A stretch of DNA of 36,347 nucleotides from Thermodesulfobacteriota bacterium. GTDB taxonomy: Bacteria > Desulfobacterota_D > UBA1144 > Nemesobacterales > CSP1-2. A model generated the notes under the pieces. That model had not been told where the DNA came from, made no database searches, and saw nothing but the letters and a program-made list of their open reading frames with translations. Within the stretch, counting starts at the first letter, position 1. Every line of letters begins with the position of its first letter. The stretch covers positions 1-36,347 of the forward strand of contig DATMAT010000035.1 in NCBI GenBank assembly GCA_035559815.1. Reading direction: 5' to 3'. Of the stretch, positions 912-22,064 are shown in pieces. Made by a program: the position numbers and the translations under genes.

Positions 912-3900
912 TTAATTGTCTTTGGAATTGTCACTTTCAGCCGCAGTCTTCGCTAAATCTATTCCACACTCCTGAGCAATCTTCTCAACTTCCAGTCTCA
1001 CTTCACTGCTCATCTCTACTTCCGTTAATGCACTTCTAACTCGGTCCTGGAAATCAATTTTTGAAGCACTCATACACTTCTCTAGGATTCTAGGTCTTTG
1101 ATTAACAGCCCTCTGAACCCACTTCAATTCCTTAAGATTTCTCTTGGTAAGGATTTGGGTAAACAAATGCCTAACTATCTTGTCAGCTTCCTCATCAAGC
1201 AATCCTGATTCCATTAGTTCATTGCCATACAAGGCTAAAATTGGCTCAATTTCTTTATTTGGCTCATTGATAAGTTCATCCCTCAAATTACGTAGAAAAG
1301 TTTGTTTTGACGGATCTACGAGCACAGAAAGTACCAATGACCACTTTTCACGAAACTTTACAGGCTGAGCCTGTCCATCCATAATTTTTCGAGCATGATC
1401 AAGTAGTGCATCGAGGAAGTTTGTCGTTAGTTCTGTAGATTCTCCATTCTCTGCTAAACGTAATGCTATTTCCAAGAGTTGGCCTTCATGCTTTAGCTCT
1501 TGTAGCCAAGTATCTTTTTGCACAGTGCGAATGCCATCAAGCAAAAAATTCGTATAATCAGTGTGCTCTTGATCAATACCCATTTCATAAGCAAGAATAT
1601 AAAGTCCGGCTAAATCCTCAGAAAAAGTATGTTCAGTAAGAATTGAGAGCAGATTTGCCTTCAAGATGAGTTTCTTAATAAGGTTTTTCAGTATATCTTC
1701 AGACAAAGTCTTTTTGAAATAATGATAATGATTAATTAAGATAGATGGCGAAATGTGTTTATGTGTATCATCCCGCTGTGCAATCATTTCTAGAATAGCT
1801 TTTACCAAAGGCTCAGTATTTGGTGCTGTTGATACTTTAGTGGGCAGATCTTCTACTTTATGAAACTTAAGAATTAGAGAAACAAGATGCTCAATAACTT
1901 CCTTACTGCTATTTGGATCCGTGAGTATCACATTGTACGCATCAAGACCGGCAGCCGAGTTCCCTATTTGAGATTGAAGGTTGCCAGTTGGGGTAAAATC
2001 AAATATAGGGAAAATACACAAGGCAATAGCCTTTGCGTCCTTTCCAGCTTGCGCTTTATGTAGATGGTGCATCAGATGTCCATGGGTACAAAGTTGTTGT
2101 AGGTTCGCCTTTGCTTGGGGAATCACTTCTCTATGCACGAGGTAAATCATTGCTTTAACGCATCCTGCAATCTCTTGAGTCTGTAAATTATTGCTGCCTT
2201 GCAGCCGTTGATTAAGATCATTAACAAGTTTCTTCCAAGGCCATTCACTTCCAATCTTAGTCATAAAATCTATAGACTCAGCGTGCGCTTCTACTAATTT
2301 CCCACTATTACAAATCCTTGCAAGTTCATCCACAATATGCTCAGGTTCAGCTTTTGGGGTAAAATATTCTGCAAGTTCCTCTGCGCTTACCTCTTCACGT
2401 AATCTAATCATTATCTCAATATAGAAACTCGCATCACCTGGTACACCAAAGATCTTCTTAATCAGTTCCTTATAACCAGCCTCATGCACTGTTTTTATAA
2501 CTTGTAATGTACCCTTCACCCACTGCTTAACTCGTGTGGAATCAAAGATTTTCTCTCCTTCTTTTTCTGTGTGTGGTAAGGAAGTTCTTGTAAGGGTTCC
2601 AAGAATATGACTTGCGAGGTCCTTGTAGTTTTCAGCTTGACAATTTTTTAAAATGGCAATGATGCCACTTCCGACTTCTTCATCAAGTTTCTTCCAGTAT
2701 TCTACTCCGCAAACTGCATTCTGTAGTCCTCGCCAGATCATTTGTAACCCCTGTGTTTCAAGACCATCAAATGCACGGCCTGCAGTCGCAATAGTGTCTG
2801 GCTCCGTCTTTGCCCACGCTTCTTGATTTTCCTCTACGATGTGCTCACAGACTTCTAGAAATCCCGGTATATTCTCTAGTTTCTTAAGATTTTTATAATC
2901 CCCTTTACTCAAAGCGTCTTCGATCTGCTTGCCAATCAAAACTTGGAGAGCTTTATCAGGTGGCTCCACACTATAATGTAGGACGGCTAGCCATCGTAGA
3001 AAGTCGTCTCCAACCAAGCGTTGGATGCGCCTGTCAACAAAATCGGCTTTTACAAAAGCCTCTTCCGAAGCTTGTAATTCGTTTGCACAGAGAACATATA
3101 ATGCCTGGAATTGTAAGGAAACTTTATCACCCCAAATTCTATGATAGGCACCGATCTTGTTAATAAAAAGCTTTATATCTCGAGGTGTAGGGGGACGAGT
3201 CGCTGCTATACCTTTTAAACGGTAGAGACGATATATGATGTGGAAATCTTTTGGTTGATGATCAGGTAAAGCTATCTCCAACTGGTTGATAAGGAATTCC
3301 TTCCAATCCGAAAGTACGGGTGGAGGAACATGAAAAGTGGTTTGGAAAGTTTTATCAACAAATGCGGTAATCAAGTGACCACTTCCATGTCCCTCAGAGC
3401 CCCACAATCGATTTAGTGAAGTTGGATCAAAAGGAACCAAAAGCCAGAATTGCCTCATCCAGGAATGCGCCATTTGACTATCCCATTCAAAAAAGGTACG
3501 CATAGTAGACCAGATGGCCAAGGCTTCTTGAGGATCTACTCGATCAAGGTTATCAATAATAATCACCAACTTCTGATTTGATTTACCAATGGTATCGTTC
3601 AGTATGCGGGTGAAAATATCTCTAAACTCCAGTGAAGTTGGATCAGGTGTTCGGATTGTTGTTGATTTATTAATTTCCCTTGTTTTGTGAATGAATAAGC
3701 TGACTATACTGTCTCCTTCATGAGGTGAACGATACTGGGTCCAGAACTCCTTCTTCCAAAAACGCCAAGTAGGTTTCCAGGCAATCCAAGTAAAGAATCC
3801 CACTATCAAAGGTAACAGTGACAAAAGTAGACCCACAAGCCAGAGAGGTACTCGAATATTAAAAAAGTTAGGATCTAAATAATTCTGGTCAAATAGTGTA

Positions 3901-4382
3901 CTGAAAAGCATATATCCTAAAGGAAGGAAGAGCGCACACAGTGCAATAAGCTTACCTGGGAAAGTAAGGATCGGCTCGGAAGTTGTATCAGTTTCTTCTC
4001 TGCGTCTTGTGATTCTCTCTATGTCATTTTTCCACTTTTCCGCTATATTCCCATGGAATTGGATAAAAGTTTCAAGAAAGGAGCGTCGCAAGGGATCTCC
4101 CTGATGAGCCCAAGCATCGAAAACGAAGACATTTATTGTATGAGTATTCGCTTTTGCAGACTCACTAAGAAGTGATTTCAAGAATTTAACGACAGTAGAT
4201 TTCCCGCTTCCCCATGAACCAGTTAACGCAATAGCCTTACCGCCATCTTCTTCTCTGATAAGTGTTGCGATAGCCTGCGCGACACGCTGATGAGATCCAA
4301 AGGCGTCTGCTTCAGCCGGTAAATCAGACAAGATCCTAGTTCTACAGTCCGTTGTCGTTTGAAGTGGTTGAAAATCTTCCAT
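912..4382 (-). CDS. KAP family P-loop NTPase, membrane-associated, fourth gene of the hsd operon
   Basis: This large protein of about 1156 residues is a KAP-type NTPase, a STAND-related P-loop family often anchored to the inner face of the membrane. Near the N-terminus is a Walker A motif GSWGSGKST (about residues 55-63). Two hydrophobic segments follow (about 145-165 and 179-201), then a Walker B motif LVIIIDNLDRVD (about 272-283). Membrane helices placed between Walker A and B are the hallmark of KAP NTPases. The remaining 700 or so residues are helical with no domain I recognise, perhaps a repeat-type sensor. ATG at 4382 shares its first base with the hsdS stop (TGATG); a GTG one codon upstream is also possible, and both follow an AGGGGGGAG ribosome site. 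The coupling to hsdS implies co-expression with the restriction system. Its effector function is unknown. Confidence 0.85.
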   Translation of the reverse strand: MEDFQPLQTTTDCRTRILSDLPAEADAFGSHQRVAQAIATLIREEDGGKAIALTGSWGSGKSTVVKFLKSLLSESAKANTHTINVFVFDAWAHQGDPLRRSFLETFIQFHGNIAEKWKNDIERITRRREETDTTSEPILTFPGKLIALCALFLPLGYMLFSTLFDQNYLDPNFFNIRVPLWLVGLLLSLLPLIVGFFTWIAWKPTWRFWKKEFWTQYRSPHEGDSIVSLFIHKTREINKSTTIRTPDPTSLEFRDIFTRILNDTIGKSNQKLVIIIDNLDRVDPQEALAIWSTMRTFFEWDSQMAHSWMRQFWLLVPFDPTSLNRLWGSEGHGSGHLITAFVDKTFQTTFHVPPPVLSDWKEFLINQLEIALPDHQPKDFHIIYRLYRLKGIAATRPPTPRDIKLFINKIGAYHRIWGDKVSLQFQALYVLCANELQASEEAFVKADFVDRRIQRLVGDDFLRWLAVLHYSVEPPDKALQVLIGKQIEDALSKGDYKNLKKLENIPGFLEVCEHIVEENQEAWAKTEPDTIATAGRAFDGLETQGLQMIWRGLQNAVCGVEYWKKLDEEVGSGIIAILKNCQAENYKDLASHILGTLTRTSLPHTEKEGEKIFDSTRVKQWVKGTLQVIKTVHEAGYKELIKKIFGVPGDASFYIEIMIRLREEVSAEELAEYFTPKAEPEHIVDELARICNSGKLVEAHAESIDFMTKIGSEWPWKKLVNDLNQRLQGSNNLQTQEIAGCVKAMIYLVHREVIPQAKANLQQLCTHGHLMHHLHKAQAGKDAKAIALCIFPIFDFTPTGNLQSQIGNSAAGLDAYNVILTDPNSSKEVIEHLVSLILKFHKVEDLPTKVSTAPNTEPLVKAILEMIAQRDDTHKHISPSILINHYHYFKKTLSEDILKNLIKKLILKANLLSILTEHTFSEDLAGLYILAYEMGIDQEHTDYTNFLLDGIRTVQKDTWLQELKHEGQLLEIALRLAENGESTELTTNFLDALLDHARKIMDGQAQPVKFREKWSLVLSVLVDPSKQTFLRNLRDELINEPNKEIEPILALYGNELMESGLLDEEADKIVRHLFTQILTKRNLKELKWVQRAVNQRPRILEKCMSASKIDFQDRVRSALTEVEMSSEVRLEVEKIAQECGIDLAKTAAESDNSKDN

Positions 4383-5578
4383 CACAACTCCCCCCTAAAC
4401 GCCTTACCTAAAATCGCCTGCTCTAAGCGATGGAACTCTCTTTCAGTCACTTCCTGCACTCGCTTGAGTGCTTGAACTCTAGCTCGAATCTGTTCTAGAT
4501 AAGCTATGATAGAGTGTTGCTCGTTAAGAGATGGCAAAGGTATTGGCATCGCTTGAAGTTTCTTAGCATTCACGTTGACTTGGCCAATTGCTCGAGTTTG
4601 TTGGGATTGTAGGTATTTTTGACCTTGAGGTGAATTGATATAGAAAACAACATATCTTGGAAGTGCTTTTGAGAAATCAACCTTTAAACGAATCAAATAA
4701 GAAGCAAAAACGGCTTTTCTACTATCCTCATAAACAGCACTTTTACCTACTAGCTCGGCACTATTAGTTCTGTTAAATAAGATGTTTCCTTCGTGAACCG
4801 AGTACTTTGCTTCTTCTTCAGGAGATAAATCTATGTATTTCAGATCGTCAAGAGATACATTCCCCTCAACTATATTACCCATACGTAAAATAGGTACTCC
4901 GATAGCCTCCGAGGAGGCTTTCTTAGAAAGACCGTATTGAGGTTTGTCTATTAGGATATCACAAACTGTTTTTTGATCCTGTTTAATGTCTCTATTTTTA
5001 GAAAAGACTTCGTCAAGGGCAACCTGCATCAAGCGATTTGCGTCATGACGGGCTTCTGCTCGAAGGCGCCTAGCCTCCCTTACACGTTCCATTAGTGTCT
5101 CTAGCATTTCTACAATACGACGTTGCTCGTCTAGGGGTGGGAGAGGTAGCAAAAGTTCAACAAGGTGCTTCTTAGTTATAGCCGTAAAGGCTGAACCCTT
5201 TCCATAGCTTGAAATTTCAGTCTCAGCATTTCGTAGGTAGTACAGAAGCCACATTTTATCCAAACCACTATTAGGTCGGAGTGCAGCTAGTCCCCTGCCA
5301 ATACAGCATACTTCCTTTGCTAAATTCGTTGGACCAACAGGAGCTCTCACGCTTATCAAGACATCTCCTGATTGAGCTACTTTCTGAGGAGATATACACC
5401 AAACACGCGGAATCGGATAAATTTCCCCAAAATCAGCCTTCCCTTGAAAGAAAGGCAGACCCTCGCCAATATCGTTGTATGTTTTACTCGGTGGGGATTG
5501 ACCCATAATTATTTCACATACTTCCTCTAACTTCACCCACCGCCAACGTGGAGGCAATTTGAAAGGTCTCTCAGTCAC
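4382..5578 (-). CDS. hsdS: Type I restriction-modification specificity subunit HsdS
   Basis: HsdS reads the bipartite DNA target for the type I complex. The 398-residue protein has the expected two-repeat plan. A first target recognition domain (about 8-150) opens with PPRWRWVKLEEV and ends in LPLPPLDEQRRIV, followed by a coiled-coil spacer (about 155-200). A second recognition domain (about 205-350) ends in IPLPSLNEQHSII, followed by the C-terminal coiled coil and a LEQAILGKAFRGEL tail. Both halves look intact, so the target should be a normal split sequence. The start is GTG at 5578, which shares one base with the hsdM stop (TAGTG) and is supported by GGGGAGAG just upstream and by the conserved opening of the first domain. 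It is translationally linked on both sides. Confidence 0.95.
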   Translation of the reverse strand: MTERPFKLPPRWRWVKLEEVCEIIMGQSPPSKTYNDIGEGLPFFQGKADFGEIYPIPRVWCISPQKVAQSGDVLISVRAPVGPTNLAKEVCCIGRGLAALRPNSGLDKMWLLYYLRNAETEISSYGKGSAFTAITKKHLVELLLPLPPLDEQRRIVEMLETLMERVREARRLRAEARHDANRLMQVALDEVFSKNRDIKQDQKTVCDILIDKPQYGLSKKASSEAIGVPILRMGNIVEGNVSLDDLKYIDLSPEEEAKYSVHEGNILFNRTNSAELVGKSAVYEDSRKAVFASYLIRLKVDFSKALPRYVVFYINSPQGQKYLQSQQTRAIGQVNVNAKKLQAMPIPLPSLNEQHSIIAYLEQIRARVQALKRVQEVTEREFHRLEQAILGKAFRGEL

Positions 5579-7077
5579 TACAATCTCTCCCCGTTTTGCT
5601 GGTTATTTAGCAGATCGCTCAACTCTTCAACAATCCCCATGATCTCACGTTCTTTTTCCATGAGACTTGCTACAACCTCCATTGGCATTGGCAATTGTTC
5701 ACCTTCAGGGCGATTTGGGTTACGGGCAGTGAGGTCATAGCTGCGCTTCTTAATATCCTCTACGGGAATTATCCATGAACGCCCCGTAGGGCTAGGACGA
5801 AGCCCCCTATCCCTCCTATAATCATTCCATTTCTGCCAAAGCTCACGTGCCTCAGCAAAGTGGTCGTCTTGAATAGGACTCCCCTTGCTAAACTTCTTAA
5901 GCCCCTCCGGTATGGGAAGCTCATAATACCAAATCTCTCTTGTGGGACCGGGACGGTCAAAGAAAAGAAGCGCAGTTTTGACATCGGAATAGGGCGCGAA
6001 AGTGCCGGGAGGCAAGCTCACTATAGTGTGAAGTTCAAATTGGTCTAAAAGGTCCTTTTTTACAGTAGCAAAAGCATCACCCCTAAAGAGCGTTCCCTCC
6101 GGAACAACCATTCCACACCGAGCTCCGTCAAGGGGTTTTAGCTTTTTCATAATATGCTGTAGAAACAGCAACTCTGTTGCCTGTGACTGTACAGGAAAGT
6201 TCTGCTGTATATGCCTACCTTCAGTGCCCCCAAAGGGTGGATTAGTCATTATTGCATCGTAGCGTTCGGTGACACTACGTATATTCTCTTCAAGGGTGTT
6301 TTTACGAAGTATTCGAGGCGCAGCGACACCGTGTAGAACCATGTTCATTAATCCTAAGAGTGCCGGTATAGGTTTCTTTTCTTGTCCGAAAAAGGTTTGT
6401 TCTTGTAGCATCTTGTAATCTTCGATCGAACGTTCATGTGCCTTCATCCTAAGATAAGCCTGGGCTAAAAAACCACATGTACCACATGCAGGGTCGTAAA
6501 TGGTTTCACCAATTTGTGGATTAATGAGTTCAACAATAAACCTAATCACCGGACGTGGGGTATAAAACTCACCCGCTAGCCGATTTTCGCTTCCCAGACG
6601 GCGTAAGAGTTCTTCATAAACCTGAGAGACGGTAAAAATATCGTCATGGCTGTGAAAGTCTATTCCATTGATAATTTGTAATACATCTTTAAGGTTGTAT
6701 CCCGAAGCGCACACAATCACGTTGCGCTCAGCAAATATGCTCTTAATCGTGTTCCGAAGGAGATCGCCTTCTAGTGTTTGAAGATAGGGAATTAGCTGTG
6801 CATGAACAAAACTAATTAAATTCTCTGCACGCCAGTCCTTTGTAGCCCAGGCATTCCATCTAAGCTCACCGTCTAGAATTCTTTGATACGAGCGCCCAGA
6901 GAGCTTCGCCTGGGTCTCCCATTCCTCTTCTTGAGCATCAAGAAAACGCAGAAAAAGCAACCAGGATAGGTGCTCAACATATTCCATTACACCGCCGCAG
7001 TTGTTGTCACGGCGGAGGATGTCACATGCCCGCCAAATATCAATGGCTAATGACTGCCGTGTTTGTCCGTTGCTCAT
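5578..7077 (-). CDS. hsdM: Type I restriction-modification DNA methyltransferase subunit HsdM
   Basis: HsdM methylates adenine (N6) in the target sequence using S-adenosylmethionine and, with HsdS, forms the modification enzyme. The 499-residue protein has the HsdM N-terminal helical domain (about 10-155), then FYTPRPV and the methyltransferase core. SAM-binding motif I is DPACGTCGF (195-203) and catalytic motif IV is TNPPFGG (278-284). The second-last glycine of motif I is often G-G in relatives and is C-G here, a change I believe is tolerated in this family. The length is normal. ATG at 7077 overlaps the hsdR stop by four bases (ATGA), so translation is coupled to hsdR. The enzyme is expected to be active. 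Confidence 0.96.
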   Translation of the reverse strand: MSNGQTRQSLAIDIWRACDILRRDNNCGGVMEYVEHLSWLLFLRFLDAQEEEWETQAKLSGRSYQRILDGELRWNAWATKDWRAENLISFVHAQLIPYLQTLEGDLLRNTIKSIFAERNVIVCASGYNLKDVLQIINGIDFHSHDDIFTVSQVYEELLRRLGSENRLAGEFYTPRPVIRFIVELINPQIGETIYDPACGTCGFLAQAYLRMKAHERSIEDYKMLQEQTFFGQEKKPIPALLGLMNMVLHGVAAPRILRKNTLEENIRSVTERYDAIMTNPPFGGTEGRHIQQNFPVQSQATELLFLQHIMKKLKPLDGARCGMVVPEGTLFRGDAFATVKKDLLDQFELHTIVSLPPGTFAPYSDVKTALLFFDRPGPTREIWYYELPIPEGLKKFSKGSPIQDDHFAEARELWQKWNDYRRDRGLRPSPTGRSWIIPVEDIKKRSYDLTARNPNRPEGEQLPMPMEVVASLMEKEREIMGIVEELSDLLNNQQNGERL

Positions 7078-9752
7078 TCAATCACCTCAGTATCTGGATA
7101 AATTCTATTTTGAATCTCTTCTAGTGTATTGCTTAATTTCTTAGTAGTGCCAAACAATTTAGTAATTCTCACCGCACCACCCATGTCACGGAAGGGAGAA
7201 ACGCTAAAGATTTCAGGTGTGATCTGTTCAATTCCTGCAGTGCGGTACTTTTCAATCAATTCTAATATAACCCGGCGAGCTCCCCCACTGTAGCTCTCGG
7301 TAAAGGCTTGCTCCCTGTTTATAAAAGCGGATGCACGCTCACTCCGAGTATGTATCGGGCTTCCAAAAGCCAAATGGGCAAGAAGGTCAAAAGTATCAGC
7401 TTCAGACTCTCCAAGTATATCCGCTAAAACTTCGGGGTGAATGCTGGAACGGCGAAGGTCTTCTATGAAAGCACTACGACGAGCGGAGTTTACCCAGATG
7501 TCCCGTAGCGTTTTCTTGTTTGGCGCAGTCTTAATGATTTGCTGACGGGTGTAATCTCTATACTCGCTGAGGGAAAGCTGCTGGCCTGTTCCTTCAATCA
7601 GGAATATGGCTTCATCAGCTATATTCACTTCCAGTCCTTCCACCCGAATTCTACTAACCCCTTTCCTCTCAGGCTTTAGAGGTACTTCAATTGTCACCTT
7701 CTCATCGGCCAGAGTCTCGACGATAATTTCTCTACGAACAAATCCAGTAGCACTACAAATGAGCGTTACTGTCCCAACTGGAAGCTTAGTAAACTCAAAG
7801 GCTCCATTGTCATCCGTTAATATAGGACCCTGCTGGGTATTCGGACCGGTACGCACACTTACCGAAGCTCCAACGATACGGTCACTGGTTTGAAAATGGA
7901 TTACATGACCAGCGAGTCCGGCTGTAAAAGGTCCCTTTGGAGCCTCAGCCGGTGGCCCGGGGGGTCGGTCCCATTCATCAAATAAACGAGAGGCACCAGT
8001 AAAATCAATAATGCGGAACCAATATTTGTCGGTTGTTGAGTCAAGACGGCTTCCGCGCCCTACTATTTGCTTAAAAAGAATTGGCGATGAGAGCGTTTTC
8101 ATAAAAACAATATTTCTGCAAGGTGGCACATCCACACCAGTAGAGAGAAGCTCGGCAGTAGTGGCTACAACTGGTGCCTTTTTATCCGAATCTGCAAAAT
8201 TCTCTAACCAGCGACGCCCCTCTTCTCCCTCCTCGGAAATAATTGGTAGGGCATAATTGTCCAGTCCGGTTTCTGGACCAAACTCGTCTTGCAGAAGCCT
8301 TGCTACTAACCTGGCATGTTCCATATCAACGCAGAACACCATCGTCTTTTCCATTTTGCCAAAGCGGCGAAGCAAACTCGCAAGGTGCTGAACCATAGTA
8401 CGGGTGCGGTCAGGAAGTGTGATTTCACGCTCAAACTGAGGTGTGGTGTAAAGTTCACGTGGCTCAACTTCTTCCGGTATGAAAACATCAGCCCCCTGCT
8501 CAATAGCATCCTCCAGATGAAGCCCAGTTGCATCAACCGTAGTTCGCACGCGATGGACCTTATAGGTAGCCAAGAATCCATCTTCAATCCCTTGGCCAAA
8601 GCTGTATTGGTAGGCAGGAGGACGCCAAGTGCCTTTTTCTGGATGCTCCGGGTCTGTAGGTAACTCCGTCTCCTCAGCGCAGAAATAAGAGTAGGTATCA
8701 ACATTTTCGTTCTGCTTCGGTGTAGCGGTCATACCTAGATGAATAGCATTTCCAAAATGGTCCAGTATCTCCCGCCATGTACCAAAGCCGGAGCGATGAC
8801 ACTCGTCAATAATTACTAAGTCAAAGAAATCTTTCGGAAATCGCTCAAATAAACGAACTCCATTCTCATCCGGGCTCCAAAGTGTTTGATATATCCCAAA
8901 ATAAAGGTCTCGGTTCATATTCGGAGGATACCCACTAATCAGATTCCTAGGATCGCTAGTACCATCTGTGAAGGGAGAAAAAGTATTATATGCTTGATCG
9001 CGGAGTATAACTCTATCAGCCAAAAAGAGAACTCGTGCTGGCCTGTCAGAATGTCGAACTTGAAGCCATCCCGACTTTATTAGTTTCCAAACAATTTGTA
9101 AAGCGATAAAAGTCTTGCCGGTACCTGTCGCCATAGCAAGAAGAATGCGTCTTTGTCCACGCATAATCCGTTTGATAACTTCTCGTACAGCAACTTCTTG
9201 AAAATAATATGGCTGTTTACCACAAAGGATTTCAGGACAATACGAATGGGTTAATGGATTACGTTGTTGGGTATGAGGACTTGAATAAGTACTATATGTT
9301 TCGGCTGCCTTACGGATTTCCTTGGTATCCGTTATACGTGTGTTAAGTAGCCAGCGATTCCATAGTTCCTGCGGGGCAGGAAATCTTTCCAAAGTGCAAC
9401 TAGAGTGTGTAAAAAAATCATATTCGATGATTATATTTCCATTTGTAGAATAGGCAAAAGCCAACCCGAGGTCTTTAGCATAGCCTTTTGCCTGCTCTAA
9501 ACCTGATTCAGCAGGTTCAGACTCCGCTTTAGCTTCTACGGCAGCAATGATAAGACCATCAGTAAGTCTTAGTATGTAGTCAGCCTTACGTGGTTTACCC
9601 CTTCGATGCTTATCTCCAACTAAAATAATCCGCCCCTCTGTATATTGGCGATCACGCTGATAGTAATACTCCCTCGTCACTTGTGTTCCTACCCACCCAG
9701 AAGCCTTTAACTTTGGTTCTATCAGGTTAGCGCGTGTATCAGCTTCATTCAT
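7074..9752 (-). CDS. hsdR: Type I restriction endonuclease subunit HsdR with inserted carboxypeptidase-regulatory-like domain
   Basis: HsdR is the ATP-driven DNA translocase and nuclease of the type I complex. The 892-residue protein has an N-terminal nuclease domain with Asp58, Glu73 and Lys75 (VEAKAE) in a PD-(D/E)XK arrangement, then a superfamily 2 helicase with Walker A ATGTGKT (208-214), a DECH box (316-319), GMTATP (340-345) and the C-terminal helicase motif QIVGRGSRLD (562-571). The C-terminus (about 700-892) matches the EcoEI-type HsdR ending. Between them, at about residues 610-695 (bases 7668-7925), lies a domain with the carboxypeptidase-regulatory-like pattern GASVSV, TDDNGAFEFTKLPVG, ATGF. 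Such beta-sandwich domains are normally found in secreted or surface proteins. ATG at 9752 is the first gene of the operon; hsdM follows with a four-base overlap. No frameshift is seen. Confidence 0.95.
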   Translation of the reverse strand: MNEADTRANLIEPKLKASGWVGTQVTREYYYQRDRQYTEGRIILVGDKHRRGKPRKADYILRLTDGLIIAAVEAKAESEPAESGLEQAKGYAKDLGLAFAYSTNGNIIIEYDFFTHSSCTLERFPAPQELWNRWLLNTRITDTKEIRKAAETYSTYSSPHTQQRNPLTHSYCPEILCGKQPYYFQEVAVREVIKRIMRGQRRILLAMATGTGKTFIALQIVWKLIKSGWLQVRHSDRPARVLFLADRVILRDQAYNTFSPFTDGTSDPRNLISGYPPNMNRDLYFGIYQTLWSPDENGVRLFERFPKDFFDLVIIDECHRSGFGTWREILDHFGNAIHLGMTATPKQNENVDTYSYFCAEETELPTDPEHPEKGTWRPPAYQYSFGQGIEDGFLATYKVHRVRTTVDATGLHLEDAIEQGADVFIPEEVEPRELYTTPQFEREITLPDRTRTMVQHLASLLRRFGKMEKTMVFCVDMEHARLVARLLQDEFGPETGLDNYALPIISEEGEEGRRWLENFADSDKKAPVVATTAELLSTGVDVPPCRNIVFMKTLSSPILFKQIVGRGSRLDSTTDKYWFRIIDFTGASRLFDEWDRPPGPPAEAPKGPFTAGLAGHVIHFQTSDRIVGASVSVRTGPNTQQGPILTDDNGAFEFTKLPVGTVTLICSATGFVRREIIVETLADEKVTIEVPLKPERKGVSRIRVEGLEVNIADEAIFLIEGTGQQLSLSEYRDYTRQQIIKTAPNKKTLRDIWVNSARRSAFIEDLRRSSIHPEVLADILGESEADTFDLLAHLAFGSPIHTRSERASAFINREQAFTESYSGGARRVILELIEKYRTAGIEQITPEIFSVSPFRDMGGAVRITKLFGTTKKLSNTLEEIQNRIYPDTEVIE

Positions 9753-18211: not shown

Positions 18212-19510
18212 ATGTCCACTAACATAGTCGTACCAGAATTAGGAGAATCAGTGGTAGAGGCCACGGTACTGAGATGGCTAAAACGGGAAGGTGACCGAGT
18301 ATCGGTAGGAGAGTCAGTAGTGGAATTAGAGACGGAGAAGGCCAATTTCGAAGTGGCCGCCGAGCAAGCCGGCGTACTGGTGAGGATCGACCGGAAGGAG
18401 GGCGACGATGTGAAAGTGGGAGAGGCGCTCGGTTTAATCGGAGATGCCGGCGAGCTACCGGAAAAGCCAGTTGCCGAGTCTAAGGTGGAAGAACCAAAAA
18501 AAGAATCTAAAGAAGCCGAGCAAAGGCAGGTTGTAGAAGAGCCTGGGGAACTAAAATCATCCATCAAGGTGACTCCGGTGGCTAAGCGCCTGGCTGAAGA
18601 GCATAAAGTTGACCTGGAAAAGGTCAGTGCCACCGGCCCCGGCAACCGTATCACCAAGGAAGATGTAGAAGCCTTTATTGAAACCGGCGAAGTAAAGACT
18701 AAAGAGGTTGAAGCTTCAAACGTAACACCGATTCGAAAGGATGCGGCTGAAAAAATTACAGATCGCCCCAGAACCATTTCCGAAACGGCAGTACCGGTGA
18801 TTGACCGGTCGAGAAGAGAAGAGCGGATTCGCATGTCCCGCCGCCGGAGGACAATAGCCCGCCGCATGGTAGAAGCACAAAGAACGGCGGCAATCCTGAC
18901 CACCTTTAACGAGATTAACATGAGTGCGGTAATGGAGCTTCGCAAACGCCGTAAGGATACGTTCAAAGAGAAGCATGGGATTGGACTGGGGATAAACTCC
19001 TTTTTTGTGAAAGCGACGATCGGGGCATTAAAGGAATTTCCCCAGTTAAACGCCGAGATTCAAGAAGATGAAATAGTACTCAAACACTACTACGACATAG
19101 GCGTGGCCATCGGGGCTAAAGAGGGGTTGGTAGTTCCGGTTCTTCGGGATGCAGACCGCATGACCTTTGCCCAGATAGAGAAGGCTATTAAGGAATATGC
19201 GGAGAAAGCAGAAAACGGCACGCTTTCTCTGGAGGAGCTAATGGGGGGCACATTTACCATAACCAATGGCGGGGTTTTTGGTTCGCTGATGAGCACCCCT
19301 ATACTCAACCCACCCCAGGTCGGAATCCTAGGCCTACACAAGATCGAGGATAGGCCGGTGGTAATCAAGGGCGAGATAACTATTCGACCCATGATGTATG
19401 TAGCCCTAAGCTATGACCATCGCATCGTCGACGGGAGGGAGGCAGTACAGTTTCTGGTAAGGGTTAAAGAGCTCATAGAGGACCCGGAGTCTTTGCTGCT
19501 CGAAGGTTAA
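18212..19510 (+). CDS. sucB: Dihydrolipoyllysine succinyltransferase, E2 of 2-oxoglutarate dehydrogenase
   Basis: The 432-residue E2 core protein transfers succinyl groups from E1 to coenzyme A. It has one lipoyl domain (1-77) with the lipoylated lysine in ETEKANFE (Lys43), a charged linker rich in Glu and Lys, a peripheral subunit-binding domain (about 117-155, [19 protein letters not shown] then [11 protein letters not shown]), a second flexible linker and the acyltransferase domain (about 205-432). The catalytic motif YDHRIVDG gives His403 and Asp407. Length and order are those of SucB; the pairing with sucA makes a pyruvate or branched-chain E2 unlikely. ATG at 18212 follows TTGGAGAAAAGG. 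Nothing appears broken. No lpd gene follows; the next stretch is repeat-rich non-coding DNA. Confidence 0.96.
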
Positions 19511-19966
19511 GGTTTTTATTGTCCAAAATAAAATCAGGTTCCCCTCTTTATGTTAGCTATGCAAGCGTTGTACTAACCCTATTCGTTCAAATAGCCTTTT
19601 AACCCTACTCACACTTCGTTCTAGTTTATCCTGAGCGAAGCCGAAGGACTCAGGGTGCAGAGATATTGCTGTGAATTTTCCATGTCCTTCATGGTGAGCC
19701 TTTCGAATGCGCTCAAAGCCTGTCCTGAGCTGGTCCCCGATCTAATCGGGGAAGGAATAAACTCAGTCGAACCATGAACCCTTCGTCTTAACCCCCCTTG
19801 CGTTTCCCCCTCAGTAGGAGGGGAATTAAAGAGGGGTTGCCTCTTCGTTGTCCGTCATTGAAGTCCTTTGATTACCGTCAGGCCAACCCTGATAATCAAT
19901 CTCTTATTTTCGACAATTTTGCTATTATACAATATTAAAATTAATCAGAACCGGGAATCACCATTC
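19511..19966. repeat. Repeat-rich gap after sucB
   Basis: No gene was seen here. The sequence is built from dispersed repeat modules: TCCTGAGCGAAGCCGAAGGA (about 19628-19647) followed by CTCAGGGTG, the palindrome TCCCCGATCTAATCGGGGA (19734-19752), and a CCCCCCTTGCG...CCCCTCAGTAGGAGGGG stretch (about 19793-19823). The start, TTTTTATTGTCCAAAATAAA (about 19513-19532), resembles the GTCCAAAATAA module found near 9.9 and 25.6 kb. A terminator for sucAB is likely here but no strong stem plus T-run was identified. Confidence 0.6.
19734..19752. repeat. CCCCGAT-type palindrome, copy 1
   Basis: TCCCCGATCTAATCGGGGA is nearly a perfect inverted repeat. It is one of five similar palindromes in the window (others at 22308, 22389, 25948 and 33411), each next to CTGAGC/CTCAGG-type modules. 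Confidence 0.75.
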
Positions 19967-20682
19967 TCAGTTCCGCCCTCGGTGTATATTTTCCTGCCAA
20001 TAATTATCGGCGTGTTCTTCCAGGTCCATCCCCAGGAGGTCAAGCCACCATAGCTTGATATCGTTAGCGAGGACGCGGTAGATCCCGCCTTTAAGAAAGC
20101 GACGAGGCGAAGTTTTCATGGTATCACCAATAAGCGCCAATTTACCTTCCCGCTTCATGGCTCTACAAAATGATAGGACTCTAAAATTCTTCGCGGCGGA
20201 TAGCCTCCCAGTATCCGGAATATACCTGCCCGAACGAAAACACCCTGGTCACCGTAATATAAACCGGAAATCCGGTAACGTATACGATTAACCAGTTCCA
20301 CTATCCGTAAGCCAAATGCACCCCCATCCAAGGCGAATTCAAATGCCCCTCCTACTATATCCGGGGCTTCCAAAGCGGTTTGAATCGCTTTGTCGTAACC
20401 CATGGGAGGTATGGTATCCGCATCGAGAAAAAGAAAGACATCGCCAGTGGCGTAAGATGCTCCTTTATTGAGGGCATGGGCACGGCCAAGCATTTTTGGC
20501 TCAAATGAAATTAAAATAACCCCGAGCTCTTGCGCTATAGCGATGGTACCATCGGTAGAGCCGGAGTCTACCACGATGATCTCGTGGCGCTTCCCTAACA
20601 CGGATTTTTCCCTGGCGGAGAGAACCGTTGCCCGAAGGTACTCGGATTCATTCAATGTTGGTATGATAACACTTAGTTTCAT
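19967..20682 (-). pseudogene. TIGR04283-like family 2 glycosyltransferase, interrupted by a one-base frameshift
   Basis: The first frame (20155-20682, 175 codons) starts as a family 2 glycosyltransferase with SVIIPTLNE, VVDSGSTDGT and the metal-binding DADT (87-90), and runs to GGYPPRRILESYHF before a premature TGA. A second frame (19967-20158) begins MKREGKLALIGD and continues TSPRRFLKGGIYR, which is the normal C-terminal end of this short glycosyltransferase family. Adding one T to the run of four Ts on the minus strand (plus-strand AAAA, 20167-20170) would restore one frame of about 238 residues reading HFCRAMKREGKL. So this is either a real frameshift mutation, a sequencing or assembly error, or less likely a programmed shift. 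Without the repair it would look like two genes with a four-base ATGA overlap. The family transfers sugars in the cytoplasm or at the membrane; its acceptor is unknown. Confidence 0.82.
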
Positions 20683-20808
20683 AGAATCTCACTATAAATG
20701 ACCATTACCTACACGATCTACTATTTTTCATTTAGATGCCGGGCTCCAGTTATATTATTCATATCCAGGCAATCGGAGAGAGAACACACCAACACGAGGA
20801 GGCATTAA

Positions 20809-21162
20809 ATGGATAAAGCAGTAATTATCATCAACGAAGCCCCTAGTAGCATGAGAGCTTGGAACGGATTCAGGCTATCTGCCGCCTTGGTCGGAGTCGA
20901 TATGAAAGTGGAGCTATTTCTCTTGAACGACGGGGTATACTGCGCCCACAAAGGTCAGACGCCGCCTGAAGAGATCTCAGGCCAGAACACCGGGGCAAAG
21001 ATTAGAGAACTATTAGATATGGGAGTGCAAGTTACACTCTGTACTCAATGCGCTCAAACGAGAGGGATTACCGAGGGTATGGTAGTTGAAGGGGTAGTTT
21101 GGGGAAGTATGGTAGATCTTGCGAAATCCATAAAAGAGAGCCAGAAGGTAATCAGTTTCTAG
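20809..21162 (+). CDS. DsrE/DsrF-like family protein
   Basis: The 117-residue protein matches the DsrE-like fold, small cytoplasmic proteins involved in sulfur transfer or of unknown role. Features seen are a beta-strand opening KAVIIINEAP, a central FRLSAALVGVDMKVELFLL, and the conserved C-terminal stretch LCTQCAQTRG with Cys78 and Cys81. Cys45 (GVYCAHKG) is a third candidate cysteine. Members of this family that carry a reactive cysteine receive persulfide sulfur; whether that holds here is inference. ATG at 20809 follows a strong GAGGAGG. No dsr or tus genes lie next to it, so it is a stand-alone copy. It is transcribed away from the glycosyltransferase and toward htpX. Confidence 0.85.
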   Translation: MDKAVIIINEAPSSMRAWNGFRLSAALVGVDMKVELFLLNDGVYCAHKGQTPPEEISGQNTGAKIRELLDMGVQVTLCTQCAQTRGITEGMVVEGVVWGSMVDLAKSIKESQKVISF

Positions 21163-21164
21163 TA

Positions 21165-21193
21165 GTAGGGGCACGCTGCAGCGTGCCCCCTAC
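21165..21193. terminator. GTAGG-CACGC palindrome between convergent genes, probable bidirectional terminator
   Basis: GTAGGGGCACGCTG pairs with CAGCGTGCCCCCTAC, a stem of about 14 bp with a single-base bulge and almost no loop. ATTTTGATTTT follows on the plus strand. It lies 3 bases after the DsrE-like stop and 14 bases before the htpX stop, so it could end both transcripts. A sister palindrome lies at 36273-36300, so this is also an interspersed repeat. Confidence 0.65.
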
Positions 21194-21206
21194 ATTTTGA
21201 TTTTAT

Positions 21207-22064
21207 TCAGATAACTTCCATAGAAAGCCTTTTCAATCTCTCCACCCTCTCTTCAACCGGCGGGTGTGTGCTGAAAAGACCGGCCAAACCGCCTCGGAGC
21301 GGGTTCATGATGAACATATGTGCCGTCCCGGGGTTGGCATCGAATGAAATTCTTTGAGCACCGTAGCTAATCTTCTCTAGAGCACTGGCCAGAGATAAAG
21401 GTCTCCTGGTCAAACGTGCTCCGGTTTCATCCGCTTTATACTCCCTGGCCCGGGATATGGCCAGTTGTATAATGAGAGCGATTATCGGCGCCAGTATGAT
21501 AGTGGCGAGAGAACCGGCCAAACTTCCGTCTCCCTCTTCATCGCCGCTTCTTCCAAACCCTCCGAAAATAAGCGCCCATTGAGCCATATTGGCCAAATAA
21601 CCTATAGCGCCGGCCAAGGTAGCCGCTATAGTGCCGATGAGGATATCCCTATTCTTGATGTGCGCAATCTCGTGCGCTATAACGCCCTCAAGCTCATCCG
21701 GTTGAAGGAGCTTAACGATCCCATCGGTTACCGCTATGGCGGCGTTATCCGGACCTCTACCGGTAGCAAACGCGTTCGGTGCTGGATTAGGAATCATATA
21801 AACTCTGGGCATCGGTATTCCGGCCTGCATCGCCACATTCCTAACCATGTTATGAAGCCCGGGTGCTTCCTCTGGAGAGATCTCCTTAGCACCATACATG
21901 GCCAGAACGATCTTATCAGAGTACCAATATGATATAAAATTGATGGCTATAGCCAGGCCAAAAGCAACGGTCATACCCGCCTTTCCACCAATCATGCGCC
22001 CTATCAAGACAAAAACCAGGGTTAAAACGGCCAGCAAAAAAGCAGTTTTCAAGGTACTGGACAT
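21207..22064 (-). CDS. htpX: Membrane-bound zinc metalloprotease HtpX
   Basis: HtpX is an inner-membrane protease of the M48 family that degrades misfolded membrane proteins. The 285-residue protein has two N-terminal membrane helices (about 8-23 and 30-47), the zinc motif HEIAH (131-135), further hydrophobic segments after it (about 140-170 and 184-203) and the third zinc ligand Glu208 in [11 protein letters not shown]. The opening of the catalytic domain is [20 protein letters not shown], standard for the family. The length is typical. The start ATG at 22064 has AGGAGG about 13 bases upstream, slightly far. The gene is alone and converges on the DsrE-like gene; it is often heat- or envelope-stress-induced in other bacteria, but no such promoter was recognised here. 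Confidence 0.95.

Follow-up and report, generated by a model that had tools for sequence, protein, structure and literature searches.

The minus strand of the window (the whole stretch of DNA analysed here, 36,347 nucleotides) carries a family 2 glycosyltransferase frame that stops early and is followed, in another frame, by what looks like its missing C-terminal part. The question that this locus raises is whether it holds two genes or one broken gene and, if the latter, whether the break arose in the organism or in the assembly. Frame A (20682-20155, minus strand) encodes 175 amino acids of the glycosyltransferase, ending in ...RILESYHFVEP at a TGA stop codon, and frame B (20158-19967, also on the minus strand) encodes 63 amino acids starting with MKREGKLALIGD. 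The stop codon of frame A overlaps the ATG of frame B in the sequence ATGA at 20158-20155, and a TTTT run is read on the minus strand at 20170-20167. The features of the locus, with the evidence for each, are:

20155..20682, minus strand: upstream part of the glycosyltransferase, with the LDAD motif, cut after HFVEP (PF00535, TIGR04283; uninterrupted in 12 of 12 relatives)
20167..20170, minus strand: four-T run, the most parsimonious site of the frame change (sequence; comparison of frames with 12 relatives)
20155..20158, minus strand: ATGA, premature TGA of the upstream frame and ATG of the downstream frame, incidental (simulation)
19967..20158, minus strand: downstream part of the glycosyltransferase, with TSPRRF, out of frame (TIGR04283; 15 of 16 invariant residues)

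Frame A matched PF00535 (E=8.9e-28) and positions 1-167 of the 221 positions of the NCBIfam model TIGR04283, with 142.2 bits against a whole-protein cut-off of 182 bits. Frame B, which had no Pfam match at E<=0.001, matched positions 170-221 of the same model (21.0 bits, E=2e-4). The model is covered along its whole length, but by two frames, neither of which reaches the cut-off, and the order and spacing of the two matches would not be expected by chance.

The window's own genome is the only one of its genus in the comparison, which covered the six other genomes of the family and 42 other genomes of the order. Close orthologues were found in two of the six family genomes, each as one open frame, and close copies (E<=1e-30) in 12 of the 42 genomes of the order, all 12 being single open frames of 239-261 amino acids without inner stops. 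The position of the gene is shared, as recG and sucB matched on either side of it in all 12 loci (flanks of at most 1.5 kb) and also flank it in the window, where htpX and a DsrE-family gene lie between recG and the glycosyltransferase. These two additional genes occupy 20809-22064 (DsrE-family gene on the plus strand, htpX on the minus strand), and neither was matched at E<=1e-5 in the loci of the 12 relatives within the same flanks.

As the two frames cover adjoining parts of TIGR04283 and all 12 relatives are unsplit, we read the locus as a single gene broken by a frame change of one base and not as two coupled genes. The first-pass annotation had proposed a glycosyltransferase split by a single-base frameshift and had suggested comparing the locus in related genomes; this comparison, which returned every close copy as one frame and none as two proteins, together with the conservation of both halves, supports its proposal. 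Single-frame orthologues combined with homology that continues in the other frame are what marks a frameshifted gene. Defects of this kind are common, and no new system is described here: the one-base change at a short homopolymer, the conserved halves and the intact orthologues are the same as in any recent frameshift pseudogene or draft-assembly artefact, and nothing distinguishes this case.

The point at which the frame changes can be placed by alignment. The window agrees with its relatives in frame A through the residues HF, and in frame B from the next residue, a Cys, onward; in 12 of 12 relatives a Cys directly follows Phe or Leu at this site. The T run, where the first-pass annotation had placed the one-base change, would be its simplest and most parsimonious site, but the change could also lie a few bases upstream, in a range of about 20179-20167 estimated from the variable residues there, because these residues differ among relatives.

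We next considered the age of the lesion. Residues that are invariant in the 12 relatives were kept in the window at 55 of 55 positions in the upstream part and at 15 of 16 in the downstream part (one Ile changed to Leu); when each relative was left out in turn, the omitted protein kept 55 of 55-58 upstream and 16 of 16-21 downstream. Mean identity of the window to the relatives was 58.6% upstream, against 60.1% among the relatives themselves, and 55.1% downstream, against 61.4%; two of the four relatives for which downstream means to the others were available were even lower (L014, 52.1%; L026, 50.2%). Differences were biased towards third codon positions in both parts, and over the 63 downstream codons they numbered 19, 13 and 39 at positions 1, 2 and 3 against L013, and 24, 11 and 44 against L014. 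The reduced identity of the downstream part may reflect slightly relaxed constraint, which would make the lesion older. An old pseudogene is not supported, as there is no clear decay downstream. Because the downstream part lacks decay, the lesion appears to be either very recent or absent from the organism, the latter meaning a consensus error.

Between these two, we lean narrowly towards a genuine and very recent loss-of-function deletion, which we hold to be slightly likelier than a consensus error. The ancestral state would have been one TIGR04283-like GT2 gene of about 238 codons between recG and sucB, interrupted by a one-base deletion in the T run at 20170-20167 or shortly ahead of it; we infer that this deletion occurred in the organism itself. 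The 175-amino-acid product would lack the conserved C-terminal quarter and is probably inactive, because the TSPRRF region is lost with it.

A base-calling or consensus error, in which the cell has an intact gene and the assembly dropped one base at a short homopolymer, is a serious contender that falls somewhat short of probable. The undecayed downstream frame and the uninterrupted gene in relatives are both what such an error would leave, and homopolymers are a usual place for base-calling errors. However, short-read chemistry, if that was used here, rarely miscalls runs of four bases, and a control of assembly quality speaks against a sequence rich in such errors.

For this control, 780,639 bases of the genome, including the window, were compared with 922 proteins from stretches of four relatives, and matches with at least 40% identity and E<=1e-20 were considered usable, so that 173 queries gave 134 distinct intervals covering 135,224 bases. 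The sole frameshift among these conserved intervals was that of the glycosyltransferase gene, detected via three relatives and lying in a window that had been chosen because of it; the other 133 intervals had none. When one base was removed at random from each interval, 99, 102 and 96 of the 134 frameshifts were recovered in three rounds, a power of about 74%. As no second frameshift was found at this power, an indel-rich assembly is disfavoured; the control speaks against a high error rate and not against one isolated error. Finding none in the roughly 100 kb effectively searched would, by our estimate, be compatible with a rate as high as about three such errors in every 100 kb of coding sequence. 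Furthermore, the spectrum of A/T runs of lengths 5-7 was close to that of G040, a genome of similar G+C, which also argues against consensus error, and runs of eight were slightly fewer (0.065 vs 0.087 per kb).

Inner stops were present in three other intervals of this stricter pass. The stop in L066 belongs to a shadow frame, as the other strand gives an 81% match, and that in L094 lies in the over-long start of an otherwise open frame of 349 amino acids; neither is a disruption. The third, L073:7905-8279 of the same genome, contains an in-frame stop and matches residues 76-197 of a 216-residue query, with 54 to 56% identity to G003 and G004 proteins. Roughly the first 75 residues of the query are unmatched there, no better pair of opposite frames was found for this interval, and it is possibly a second disrupted gene; its stop counts against reading the glycosyltransferase lesion as genuine. 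With a looser cut-off applied in both directions, one other frameshift candidate appeared in the window's genome (L079), and two in the reverse direction (L106 in G004 and L152 in G040), both from the same query in L069. All three were rejected as shadow frames: the opposite strand of L079 has a better open frame (46% over 208 aligned residues), and opposite-strand open frames of L069 match L106 and L152 at 71 to 85%. Further matches of the looser pass also contain stops, including L078 and L090 in the window's genome and several in relatives. An unaligned end of over 40 residues was left by 25 of the 173 queries in the stricter pass, and three of these 25 correspond to the glycosyltransferase gene.

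An alternative to both explanations is continued production of the enzyme, full-length or in two parts, either as two translationally coupled proteins or through recoding, by programmed -1 frameshifting or by restarting translation at ATGA. We consider this very unlikely, despite the conservation of both halves and an ATGA overlap, which is a typical arrangement of coupled genes. The gene is a single open frame in all 12 relatives, so that the split is not conserved, and two coupled genes were rejected. The overlap itself is incidental, because 829 of 11,587 simulations of a one-base loss (7.2%) had ATGA at their first stop; the first-pass annotation was right that the overlap makes a split gene mimic two coupled ones. 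By eye, the bases at the run (T CAT TTT) do not form a slippery heptamer of the type X XXY YYZ, so that programmed frameshifting, for which none of the 12 relatives has a split gene either, was rejected. Nor do the bases before the ATG, GTAGAGCC, contain a good ribosome binding site, again judged by eye, which also counts against this alternative. A variant in which the split is real and confined to one lineage, both parts being made through ATGA reinitiation or through slippage of low efficiency at the T run to give a two-part or low-dose enzyme, would explain the downstream conservation if true, but we rate it slightly lower still.

Phase variation, in which slipped-strand mispairing at the T run would turn the glycosyltransferase on and off, had also been raised by the first-pass annotation and is poorly supported to the point of being negligible: genes for glycosyltransferases are well-known examples of phase variation in other bacteria, but contingency tracts as known elsewhere tend to be far longer than the four Ts present here, a run length that the window contains 308 times for A/T when runs of exactly four are counted. 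The codons at the site also vary from one of the 12 relatives to another (TTC TGT, CTA TGC and CTG TGT, for example), so that no tract has been maintained.

Returning to the interrupted gene itself, its product appears to be a small GT2 enzyme of TIGR04283-like type, for which membership of the GT2 fold family would lead us to expect sugar transfer from a nucleotide sugar. Against TIGR04283, scores of the 12 intact orthologues range from 170.5 to 196.3 bits, seven above and five below the cut-off; the gene in the window matches the model end to end, yet is interrupted. The NCBIfam name of this family is 'arsenosugar biosynthesis glycosyltransferase', a name that implies an ArsS-type radical SAM protein as partner. 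The best match to that protein (TIGR04167) in the window's genome scored 58.3 bits (cut-off, 300), and the cut-off was exceeded in one of the seven family genomes (G005). In addition, the 12 orthologues read LE[AST] (LEA, LES or LET) where the two second TIGR04283 copies that were compared, L015 and L016, read LED and MED; the acidic residue of these second copies is thus replaced in the 12 orthologues located between recG and sucB. With TIGR04167 below cut-off in the genome and the ED pair absent from the 12 orthologues, an arsenosugar role is not supported.

Sequences of 38 solved structures matched a profile built from nine of the 12 relatives, and their best matching stretches ended at or before profile position 152; there is therefore no sequence-level template for the region past the break. 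Within its own genome, the next best relative of the gene is 38% identical over 113 residues, and a scan of the genome contigs gave four distant loci with 33-40% identity. TIGR04283 matches over the cut-off (231 to 246 bits) were present in five of the six other family genomes (G002-G006) and absent from the window's genome and from G001. A real lesion would have cost this genome the only close TIGR04283-like enzyme that it had. The case matters mainly for annotation, as automatic gene prediction would report two proteins at this locus, a truncated glycosyltransferase and an orphan of 63 amino acids, in place of the single conserved enzyme of the relatives.

The intergenic region between the split gene and sucB (19520-19900) is a mosaic of dispersed repeats. 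It had at least 58 matches at E<=1e-3 in its own genome, itself included, with 40 of 173 candidates scored, and the repeats recur in pieces (approximately 1-113, 114-252 and 265-372 of the region). None was found at E<=1e-10 in the six other family genomes, among up to 40 candidates scored in each. As single-stranded DNA, the region folds better than 100 of 100 shuffled sequences (z -3.54), and a search of 19400-20900 against Rfam gave no match at the gathering score. Elsewhere in the window, Pfam matches identify type I restriction-modification genes (HsdR-like, 7074-9752; HsdM, 5578-7077; HsdS, 4382-5578). Next to them, and overlapping at the end, lies a gene at 912-4385 for a KAP-family P-loop NTPase of 1157 amino acids, which is possibly a defence add-on.
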